Positions 61,443-64,000 of a DNA stretch of 64,000 bases are shown here, piece after piece. Within the stretch, counting starts at the first letter, position 1; the number at the start of each line of letters is the position of its first letter. Source of the stretch: Flavicella marina (lineage in GTDB: Bacteria; Bacteroidota; Bacteroidia; Flavobacteriales; Flavobacteriaceae); assembly GCF_009193215.1 (NCBI RefSeq), contig NZ_VYVA01000001.1, positions 682,001 to 746,000 of the forward strand, written 5' to 3'. The notes under the pieces were generated by a model that searched no databases, was not told where the DNA came from, and saw nothing but the letters and a program-made list of their open reading frames with translations. Made by a program: the position numbers and the translations under genes.

Positions 61443-61476
61443 AAAAATCCCGTTAGATAGACTAACGGGATTTTTT
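61443..61476 (+). terminator. Terminator after asd
   Basis: A perfect 14-bp stem AAAAATCCCGTTAG / CTAACGGGATTTTT with loop ATAGA and a T run; it can also serve the convergent minus-strand gene. Confidence 0.93.
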
Positions 61477-61484
61477 ATTTTCGA

Positions 61485-62378
61485 TTAAAACCTCCAATAG
61501 GCAAATACACCCATTCCGTATCTAAACAATACCTCGTGTTCAATTAAATTTTGATCGAGCGACAACTGAGAATTCAACCCCATAATAACTCTTTCTGTTT
61601 CTAACTGAATCCCAAAATTACTATTTGTCATATAACCCGAAGTACGTCGATCAATTATATCAAATCGCTCTGAGGGTTTGAACTGATCGTAATTAACCCC
61701 AACATAGGGTGACATTTTCAATTGTTTGCTTAGTTGAATTCCATAAGCAATACTCGTATTCACTTGTGTTTGATTTCCATATTTAAACTCCTCACTATTG
61801 GTATTCTTAATAAAATACACTGCACTTATATTGAACGAAAATTGATTTAAATTCAAGGCATACTGCAGCGGTAAAGCAATATCTAAACTACCTGTACCTA
61901 ATTGAGTGGATGATGTTTTATTATCTTGTGAACTTGCCAAATCAAATTTACCCGTGGGTAATTTCAAACCTAAACCTAATTTTAAAACATGTTTACTCGC
62001 TTCGTTTAAAACACTAATCAATCCGTATATAGAAACATCCCCTAACCCGCTTAAGCTAACATCTTCTTCACTCGTATACCTGTAATTAAAACGGTACGGT
62101 AAAATAACATTGATCAATATTCGATCATTTATTTGGTATTGACCTGTCGCGGTTACTGTATTAATTCTATCATCAGCCAACGGACTGTCTTCAAACACAC
62201 CTTCTTTGTACTGAAAAAACATATGATTGTAGCTCATTCCAATAAAATTACCATGTATTGCATTGGTAAACACACTGTTGTTAGCCGAACCACAACTACA
62301 AACATCACAAGCATAACTCGTGACAGAAAAAAACAATACAAAAATTAAACATCTAAGGTTTTGCAAAACGAGTATCAT
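61485..62378 (-). CDS. Putative outer-membrane protein with CDVCSCG motif, linked to MbnH/MbnP
   Basis: A 297-residue protein with a signal peptide (about 1-23) whose mature end begins CDVCSCGSANNSVF, a cysteine cluster suited to metal or haem chemistry. The rest is a run of amphipathic beta-strands (GQYQINDRILINVILPYRFNYRY, LSGLGDVSIYGLISVL, GLGLKLPTGKFDL) ending in Phe (YWRF), as expected of an outer-membrane barrel of the kind called transporter or MetA-pathway phenol degradation protein. Its start overlaps the MbnH-like gene by 26 bases. The context points to export or uptake of a metal, probably copper or iron, but function is not known. Confidence 0.7.
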   Translation of the reverse strand: MILVLQNLRCLIFVLFFSVTSYACDVCSCGSANNSVFTNAIHGNFIGMSYNHMFFQYKEGVFEDSPLADDRINTVTATGQYQINDRILINVILPYRFNYRYTSEEDVSLSGLGDVSIYGLISVLNEASKHVLKLGLGLKLPTGKFDLASSQDNKTSSTQLGTGSLDIALPLQYALNLNQFSFNISAVYFIKNTNSEEFKYGNQTQVNTSIAYGIQLSKQLKMSPYVGVNYDQFKPSERFDIIDRRTSGYMTNSNFGIQLETERVIMGLNSQLSLDQNLIEHEVLFRYGMGVFAYWRF

Positions 62379-63459
62379 TTAAAAATTCATCATCTGTTAG
62401 GGTTTTTAAAAAAGCAATAATTGAAGCTTTTTCTTCTTCAGTCATTGCGATTCCTAACACTTCATTTCCGTTAACATCAGACACCAAACGAGCATCTAAA
62501 TTCTCCATTTTTACCATATATGGATAGGTATCTGTATCGTAAAAATCAAGTACTTTTTTCAAAGTAACAAAACGACCATCATGCATATATGGAAAAGAAA
62601 CTTCAACATTTCGTAAACTTGGCACCTTGAATTTATAATAGTCAGGATGCGCTTTTCCTTCTTCAACAGTCAAACCTGGGTTGGCTATTGTAATTCTAGA
62701 TCTACCCAGTTCATCTGGCAATTTTGAATTTACACCGATTCCATTATTTACAAACTCTTGATTGGTAAACAACTCTCCTGAATGACAATTGGCACATTTT
62801 TGCTGAAACAATGCCAAGCCTCTTTTTTCTTCTTCAGAAAACTCACCTCCTGACTCATCTCGAACATACTTATCATAAGTAGAATTTGCTGAAACCATAG
62901 CTCCCATAAATTTCGCTAAAGCTTTTAGCATGTTTACAGAATTTACTGGTGAATCACCACCAAAAACGTCGGCAAACTCTGAAGGATACTCTTTGTCTAG
63001 CTTTAATTTTTCTATTACATTCTCCAAAGTCTCATTCATCTCAACTTCTTCAGTAATCGGAATCACTGGCTGTTTCCAAAGTAATTCAACAGCACCATCC
63101 CATGTGAAAGCATCCATAAAAGCCAAGTTTTGAATTGGCTGTGAGTTTCGAGCTCCTAACACATCTACCAACACCCCTTCACTTAAATCATGTCCATGAT
63201 GTGTAAATGCAAATGCTTGGTTATGACATTCAGCGCACGAAATAGCATTTCCGGCAGATAATTTTGTATCATAAAACAACTTTCTCCCCAGCTCAAACCC
63301 TTTGGTATCGATAGGATTATCTTCTAAGTCGTACGTTGGAGTAGGAAAATTTATCGGCTGTTCAAAACCAACTTCAAGCTTTGATTCCATGATAGCCTCT
63401 GAATCAGAACAAGCAATAAAAACCGTCGATATTACAAGTGATATTAATAAATATTTCAT
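62353..63459 (-). CDS. Di-haem cytochrome c peroxidase / MauG-MbnH-like lipoprotein
   Basis: A 368-residue periplasmic lipoprotein (VFIACSDSE; Cys17) with two c-type haem motifs, CAECH (Cys75-His79) and CANCH (Cys222-His226). The fold signature LGRKLFYDTKLSAGNAISC, FTWDGAVE and FPYMHDGRFVTLKKVLDFYD is that of the bacterial di-haem peroxidase superfamily. Members next to MbnP-type genes are called MbnH and oxidise a tryptophan of their partner; ordinary members remove H2O2. The MbnP-like gene 40 bases upstream favours the MbnH role. Haem attachment shows export to the periplasm. Confidence 0.85.
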   Translation of the reverse strand: MKYLLISLVISTVFIACSDSEAIMESKLEVGFEQPINFPTPTYDLEDNPIDTKGFELGRKLFYDTKLSAGNAISCAECHNQAFAFTHHGHDLSEGVLVDVLGARNSQPIQNLAFMDAFTWDGAVELLWKQPVIPITEEVEMNETLENVIEKLKLDKEYPSEFADVFGGDSPVNSVNMLKALAKFMGAMVSANSTYDKYVRDESGGEFSEEEKRGLALFQQKCANCHSGELFTNQEFVNNGIGVNSKLPDELGRSRITIANPGLTVEEGKAHPDYYKFKVPSLRNVEVSFPYMHDGRFVTLKKVLDFYDTDTYPYMVKMENLDARLVSDVNGNEVLGIAMTEEEKASIIAFLKTLTDDEFLNDTRFAKP

Positions 63460-63499
63460 AGTTTGTTACTCCCAAAAAGAGCATCGATAGATGTAATTA

Positions 63500-64000
63500 T
63501 TAATGACTGTGACTAGAACCTTCACTATCTGAATGATCGTGATCGTCTTGTTCAACATCTTCTAAATCAACTGCTTCATCTAAAGGATGTACGTGATGTA
63601 CTTCAAAAATATTTGCATAATTATCAGCAAAATCAGAACTGTTTGGAGCTCCCAAATAAACCGTTACTCCATTATCTGGAGTAAATAACTTCTCAATATT
63701 CACTTTTACATGTACGCTAGGTGATACTTCATTTTTTACGGTAATATTCTGTGGGAAATCTAACGTTACCGTTCTAAACCCATCAAAATCTCCTTTTTTA
63801 CCGATATGTATCCATAAATTATCTGCGTCTTCTGTTTCAGATTTTGCCATATGATTCATCATATTCAACTTGTTTGTCGCTTCAATTTTAGAAAATATAT
63901 AAGAGTTCGGGTTCCAGCTCCAGTTCATATCAGCTGAAGCCAAGTCAAATAATCTTGATTGTGCATCAGCACTACCACTAGCAACCTCATCACTTACCCC
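63500..64000 (-). CDS. MbnP-like protein, 5' end cut by window edge
   Basis: At least 166 residues; the frame is open to base 64000 so the start and probable lipoprotein signal lie outside. The stretch MNWSWNPNSYIFSKIEATNKL matches the core of MbnP-like proteins, and VTLDFPQNITVKNEVSPSVHVKVNIEKLF follows. The C terminus is rich in His and Asp (HHVHPLDEAVDL, DDHDHSDSEGSSHSH), good for metal binding. MbnP partners of MbnH carry an oxidised tryptophan that helps bind copper; the Trp pair WSW is a candidate. A TTG at 63943 is not the true start since the frame continues upstream. Confidence 0.75.
   Translation of the reverse strand, partial: GVSDEVASGSADAQSRLFDLASADMNWSWNPNSYIFSKIEATNKLNMMNHMAKSETEDADNLWIHIGKKGDFDGFRTVTLDFPQNITVKNEVSPSVHVKVNIEKLFTPDNGVTVYLGAPNSSDFADNYANIFEVHHVHPLDEAVDLEDVEQDDHDHSDSEGSSHSH

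Follow-up and report, generated by a model that had tools for sequence, protein, structure and literature searches.

A four-gene MbnP/MbnH unit with a cysteine-bearing outer-membrane barrel in Flavicella marina and other Bacteroidota

The closest described counterparts of the locus considered here are MbnP and MbnH of M. trichosporium OB3b (TIGR04052/TIGR04039, the 'metallo-mystery pair'; structure 7l6g), a pair that is conserved far beyond the producers of methanobactin (PMC3621798). How MbnP and MbnH work outside methanobactin producers is an open question, and little is known of how copper crosses the outer membrane in Bacteroidota. Two further systems, MopE/SACCP of Methylococcus capsulatus and CorA/CorB of Methylomicrobium album, likewise combine a surface copper protein with a di-haem MauG-like partner, the copper site being made up of histidine ligands and an oxidised tryptophan (kynurenine and two histidines), as described in PMC3912023. 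In the text consulted no barrel linked to MopE or CorA is described, unlike the unit of F. marina. No sequence relation of MopE/SACCP or CorA/CorB to this unit was detected. Tryptophan and histidine are conserved in MbnP; the kynurenine modification itself is invisible in sequence.

As to outer-membrane channels, the COG4313 protein Pput2725 (4rl8) and FapF share with the F. marina barrel both twelve strands and an N-terminal segment that precedes strand 1. The pore of 4rl8 is occluded by its first ~14 residues, which enter from the periplasm, and the cargo ascribed to COG4313 channels consists of hydrophobic molecules and not of ions (PMC4493636). COG4313 and FapF are tied to hydrophobic compounds or to an amyloid protein, and no CDxCGC tip has been described for either. 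OprC and NosA are large TonB-dependent outer-membrane copper receptors with a plug, whereas the F. marina barrel is small and possesses neither plug nor TonB box.

The locus lies at the end of a stretch of 64,000 nucleotides of the forward strand, hereafter the window (C7:682001-746000), in the 3.16-Mb, 99.8% complete genome of F. marina. It resembles the OB3b system in the gene pair, the W-x-W motif, the MbnP fold and the tyrosine-ligand type of enzyme. It differs in that both proteins score below the respective NCBI equivalog cut-offs, in that MbnP is devoid of the four-cysteine motif and bears a histidine triad, in that both proteins are lipid-anchored, and in the linkage of a barrel and of a small membrane protein. 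Nor are there methanobactin genes, as the earlier note on this DNA had remarked for the window: a match to MbnB (PF05114) is absent from the whole genome. The pair is of a known kind, whereas the four-gene unit, its two unnamed families and the match between histidines and barrel appear undescribed in the literature searched. That search found no text on MbnP in Bacteroidetes, a mention within the MbnH literature being possible.

Architecture of the locus

The genes for MbnP, the MbnH-like enzyme and the barrel occupy positions 61485-64000 of the window on the minus strand (Table 1), in the tight row that had earlier been recognised as a His-rich MbnP-like protein, a di-haem MbnH-like lipoprotein and a barrel with a cysteine cluster. 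The trio is real, but the unit comprises four genes, since just outside the window, upstream on the same strand and separated from MbnP by 150 bases, lies the gene of a 130-aa membrane protein (L004:6529-6921; handles beginning with L denote fetched loci, L004 being the stretch of F. marina read past position 64000). This protein carries CENKDKPQLQCNGKCHLAKEL and a C-terminal PP, and we coined the name CNGK for such small CxGKC...PP membrane proteins. Its conserved core of C, CxGxC and PP is kept in 40/40 relatives, and no match to it was found in Pfam or NCBIfam. The gene order is accordingly CNGK, MbnP, MbnH-like di-haem enzyme and barrel, the start of the barrel gene overlapping the end of the enzyme gene by 26 bases.

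The unit is bounded by two terminators, both strong, of which the downstream one is shared with the convergent asd gene and closes the operon; terminator-like sites in the stretch number seven as against 1.5 expected. Between the upstream terminator and CNGK there is a promoter-like TTTG-N19-TATTTTTG, a type corresponding to the Bacteroidetes promoter consensus, and TAnnTTTG precedes the unit in 74/111 loci compared with 12 in shuffles. From this arrangement the four genes are predicted to form a single transcription unit. A shared upstream palindrome of the kind expected for a metalloregulator site was found in at most 4/92 loci, shuffled sequences giving up to 3, and for this reason no operator is claimed. 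All four genes have dN/dS values below 0.2 relative to the Flavicella relative, a comparison in which dS is saturated, and are under purifying selection. The earlier note had suggested looking beyond position 64000 for partners such as TonB receptors; in the F. marina genome none adjoins the unit on either side, including past 64000, although some relatives have one beside theirs.

Table 1. Positions of the genes, motifs and terminators of the unit (window numbering unless a locus is named)
Feature	Position	Strand	Basis or remark
Terminator-like hairpin, 14 pairs	61443..61475	.	closes operon; common to convergent asd gene
Predicted 12-strand outer-membrane barrel, N-terminal Cys cluster, 297 aa	61485..62378	-	AlphaFold pLDDT 83.7, pTM 0.81
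His130 of barrel	61989..61991	-	36/37 Flavobacteriaceae
C24-D-V-C27-S-C29 cluster at mature N-terminus of barrel	62292..62309	-	conservation
MbnH-like di-haem lipoprotein, 368 aa	62353..63459	-	TIGR04039 236 bits; CCP_MauG E 3e-48
Tyr307, MauG-type axial tyrosine position (Met in classical peroxidases)	62539..62541	-	aligned to Tyr of 6e1c
Second haem-c motif CANCH	62782..62796	-	sequence
First haem-c motif CAECH	63223..63237	-	sequence
MbnP-family lipoprotein, C-terminal 166/292 aa in window	63500..64000	-	Pfam PF20243 above cut-off
H262-V-H264 of MbnP, C-terminal HxH of triad	63587..63595	-	alignment
H223 of MbnP (PxxH), first histidine of barrel-linked triad	63710..63712	-	alignment
H191 of MbnP	63806..63808	-	56/56 in family, with or without barrel (nearly all)
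W153-S-W155, conserved W-x-W motif of MbnP	63914..63922	-	family alignment
Upstream terminator	L004 7052-7018		before CNGK; terminator scan

The MbnP lipoprotein and its di-haem partner

The MbnP gene is cut by the end of the window and reaches the window-equivalent position 64378 (L004:5500-6378). Whereas the fragment scores 43 bits against PF20243 (MbnP), the full-length protein reaches 99.2 bits, above the gathering cut-off of 27, in agreement with the family name that had been given to it from the window. The outcome that the earlier note had named as a refutation, a complete protein lacking any MbnP match, thus did not arise. The score against the equivalog TIGR04052 (MbnP_like_WxW) is 27.2 bits, below the NCBI cut-off of 140, as is that of the F. 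johnsoniae MbnP (44.5 bits). An AlphaFold model, built on a close Flavicella relative (L130) in place of F. marina's own copy, matches M. trichosporium MbnP 7l6g with Z 12.8 over 201 residues, the next-best structural match having Z 4.9. On these grounds of profile and model we assign the protein to PF20243, with a predicted MbnP fold. The W-x-W aligns to that of 7l6g, its tryptophans being kept in 55/56 (W153) and 54/56 (W155) family members, and the tail is rich in histidine (HHVHP...HDHSDSEGSSHSH). The four-Cys motif that figures in the 7l6g entry name is lacking in the window MbnP, which like 117/143 MbnP relatives has no cysteine after residue 35.

MbnP probably resides on the cell surface, and the enzyme may do so too. 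The family consensus after the lipid-bearing cysteine of MbnP is C-S-S/N-D-D-D, and that of the enzyme is similarly acidic, recalling the SDDDD and SDDFE export signals that bring Bacteroidetes lipoproteins to the surface (PMC5080379); the F. marina N-termini themselves, CNNSDTN and CSDSEA, fit such a signal less well than does the family consensus.

The best NCBIfam match of the enzyme is TIGR04039 ('MbnH family'), a hypothetical equivalog whose NCBI cut-off of 362.85 bits is missed. The closest solved chain is 6e1c, annotated 'Di-heme enzyme' (E 9e-39). Both haem motifs are kept in 65/65 aligned relatives, and Trp120 in 49/65. In MauG-type enzymes a tyrosine ligates the six-coordinate haem, as opposed to the methionine of classical di-haem cytochrome c peroxidases (PMC6405878). 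The corresponding column of the alignment holds Tyr in 59/65 and Phe in 6/65 sequences, and methionine in none of the 65, which leaves the enzyme without the Met at the high-potential haem by which a classical di-haem cytochrome c peroxidase is recognised. The tyrosine predicts, without proving, high-valent chemistry on a protein partner over simple peroxidase work. The F. marina genome contains two further di-haem peroxidase-like genes unaccompanied by MbnP (G000:C17:5772-6650 and G000:C12:467677-468651).

The barrel and the histidines of MbnP

The barrel lies outside any named family and, on the evidence of its model, possesses a COG4313-type fold. No family in Pfam or NCBIfam matched it above cut-off, and neither the PDB, searched by sequence, nor plasmid records yielded a match; PF13557, a family related to the COG4313 channel fold, does not match the window barrel, while a distant relative scores 20.5 against a cut-off of 22. 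The best structural match, with Z 25.1 and an rmsd of 2.5 A over 245 residues, is the COG4313 channel 4rl8, followed by FapF (Z 24.8), at sequence identities of 12-17% to these structures; the efflux barrel PcoB, with Z 12.7, falls far under 4rl8. The nearest relatives are those of a Flavicella MAG (85% identity) and of Wenyingzhuangia.

Whereas the window barrel starts with YACDVCSCG, the family motif is CDxCGC. All three cysteines are present in 37/37 barrels from Flavobacteriaceae and, across the phylum, in 36, 34 and 31 of 36, respectively. Apart from these cysteines, His130 alone among the metal-type side chains of the barrel is strongly conserved. The structural alignment sets residue 31 of the model against the first residue of 4rl8, so that CDVCSCG (residues 24-30) would come just before the segment that enters the pore and would be situated either inside the lumen or at the mouth facing the periplasm, the model being weak there (pLDDT below 50 at residues 29-40).

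Relatives of the barrel were found in 56 of 395 Bacteroidota genomes (57 matches), and 41 of the 57, including all 31 strongest, lie near an MbnP gene on the same strand. For the comparison of neighbourhoods 60 loci were fetched, then 80 more with organism names. By our own tally, the order CNGK-MbnP-enzyme-barrel recurs in 74/81 Bacteroidota loci, F. johnsoniae included, amid flanks that change and are unrelated; the barrel heads the row instead of closing it in L089 and L091, which represent two distant groups. Additional genes accompany some units: CNGK, a TonB receptor and PepSY in 11 loci, another TonB receptor in 6, and SCO, CNGK, SOD and YHS in others.

The MbnPs of barrel operons are distinguished by three additional histidines, one in PxxH (H223) and two in a C-terminal HxH (H262 and H264). 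After dereplication (n=114) this triad was present in 44/52 barrel-operon MbnPs and in 0/62 MbnPs that lack a barrel. Forty of the MbnPs were fetched after the rule had been seen, and among these the triad was missing from 38/38 barrel-less and present in 2/2 barrel-linked proteins. Six triad MbnPs were counted as barrel-linked with the barrel three genes away, with its ORF uncalled, or as the leading copy where the pair is doubled. The eight exceptions comprise five MbnPs associated with CDFC-type barrels of distant families and three second copies, second MbnP copies in barrel operons being devoid of the triad. A Pagel-type likelihood test on a 74-row tree (own script, best tree only) gave p = 9e-8, while an independent-pairs test restricted to firm branches, underpowered with about five usable pairs, gave ~2.7 pairs in agreement and 0 in disagreement (p 0.25). 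The match between histidines and barrel is thus clean, but few independent events stand behind it.

The third gene, earlier taken for a partner of the pair, is indeed one, being linked to MbnP across Bacteroidota and matched to its histidine signature. The idea that the trio may represent an independent metal-acquisition system is partly supported: pair and partner are upheld, and the arrangement is phylum-wide and not peculiar to this genome.

Two departures from the pattern may be added. In L097 and L099-L103 the barrel is of the CDFC type and the MbnPs mostly display ER-HH-VGPxNLADR or similar in place of the triad, possibly constituting a second subtype. In L250, L255, L260 and L266, barrel-less MbnPs have the PxxH histidine together with a shifted HGVH tail.

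Metal hints, candidate mechanism and alternatives

Variant units offer some guidance as to the metal. In L212, L226 and L228, a related barrel with histidines instead of cysteines near its N-terminus is combined with CNGK, SCO and PCu(A)C, the latter two verified by Pfam in L212 and assigned in L226 and L228 by the like layout. Overall, SCO (PF02630) is present in 12 loci, and these CNGK-barrel operons with SCO and PCu(A)C provide the best hint for copper. A His-rich transporter-like gene lies upstream of the operon in L212, L226 and L228, and the F. marina genome has four SCO genes.

Set beside the observed gene content, operon structure, conservation, predicted folds, tyrosine position and histidine-barrel association, the reading that we hold to be on balance probable is that of a methanobactin-independent outer-membrane module of Bacteroidota for metal acquisition, most likely of copper. 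From what known MbnH/MauG-type enzymes do, MbnH acting on a tryptophan of MbnP via bis-Fe(IV), we infer that the MbnH-like enzyme, with peroxide, would oxidise a tryptophan of the W-x-W motif in a lipid-anchored MbnP, itself probably flipped to the cell surface, and so finish the metal site, whose ion the PxxH and HxH histidines would hold or hand over. The CDxCGC-tipped N-terminus of the COG4313-type barrel would reach into the pore from its periplasmic end, and the thiolates of this tip would draw the ion through and release it to the periplasm, where, or at the inner membrane, the CxGKC...PP protein may act. This specific itinerary, in which a transition metal, in all likelihood copper, would cross the outer membrane without TonB, passing from a peroxide-matured surface MbnP by way of a three-histidine contact to a Cys-tipped channel that serves as thiolate relay or gate, is put forward tentatively and must be considered rather doubtful in its details. 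The occurrence of the unit in the genetically tractable Flavobacterium johnsoniae, together with residue-level predictions for W-x-W, PxxH, HxH, CDxCGC and the tyrosine, makes it amenable to study. Weighing against the reading are the hydrophobic cargo ascribed to COG4313 channels, the MbnPs without a triad beside CDFC-type barrels, the weaker export signals of the F. marina copies, and the likeness of linked TonB receptors to zinc receptors.

The same architecture could instead handle zinc, or another or several divalent ions, the kynurenine-type site being reduced or absent and the histidines binding the metal. HxH/PxxH and CxxCxC would suit zinc too, and the linked TonB receptors resemble zinc receptors as much as copper receptors, that beside some units scoring 141.6 bits against ZnuD and 85.9 bits against the copper receptor, both far below cut-offs. 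Yet nearly all units retain W-x-W together with the Tyr-ligated di-haem enzyme, and the neighbouring SCO and PCu(A)C genes favour copper, so that we regard a metal other than copper as unlikely. Transport direction, for its part, is unreadable from sequence, and PcoB does figure among the structural matches, albeit at the distance noted above; hence one may conceive of metal tolerance, with MbnP and MbnH oxidising or trapping copper outside the cell and the barrel acting as a pore for export or sequestration. This appears improbable, given that neither an efflux pump nor a copper sensor is repeatedly encoded next to the unit in the compared loci, that SCO and PCu(A)C work in the delivery of copper, and that the characterised analogues CorA and MopE are copper-repressed (PMC3912023).

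Membership of the CCP_MauG superfamily, a match to bacterial peroxidases at E 1.7e-35 and the SOD genes of some units would also accord with an ordinary surface peroxidase directed against H2O2, MbnP being its electron donor or scaffold and the barrel an unrelated porin. With Tyr and not Met at the axial-ligand position, a strict pairing of the enzyme with MbnP and a barrel linkage far too consistent for an unrelated porin, we consider this very improbable. The acquisition module, with copper as its most likely cargo, remains the preferred interpretation.

Two exceptions lend it support. Loci L094 and L095 combine CNGK and a barrel bearing the full or partial Cys motif, MbnP being absent nearby. 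In its stead there is a small His-rich lipoprotein of no known family ending in HCHPM or HVHPE (L094:6590-7054, minus strand; L095:7854-8300, plus strand), and such HxHP-ending lipoproteins can perhaps stand in for MbnP. In L119, L120, L122 and L123, barrel-less MbnP/MbnH pairs are preceded by CNGK, a lipoprotein of ~307 aa and a TonB-receptor-like gene of ~660 aa, as if the receptor replaced the barrel. Where relatives of the barrel lack the motif, as in L104, L105, L214 and L218-L224, the adjoining genes are unrelated, for example those of DUF3179 proteins. Among the barrel relatives beside DUF3179-type proteins, those of L214, L218-L224 and L227 start with QTCSCAG or QACCSAG, a pairing as yet unnamed.
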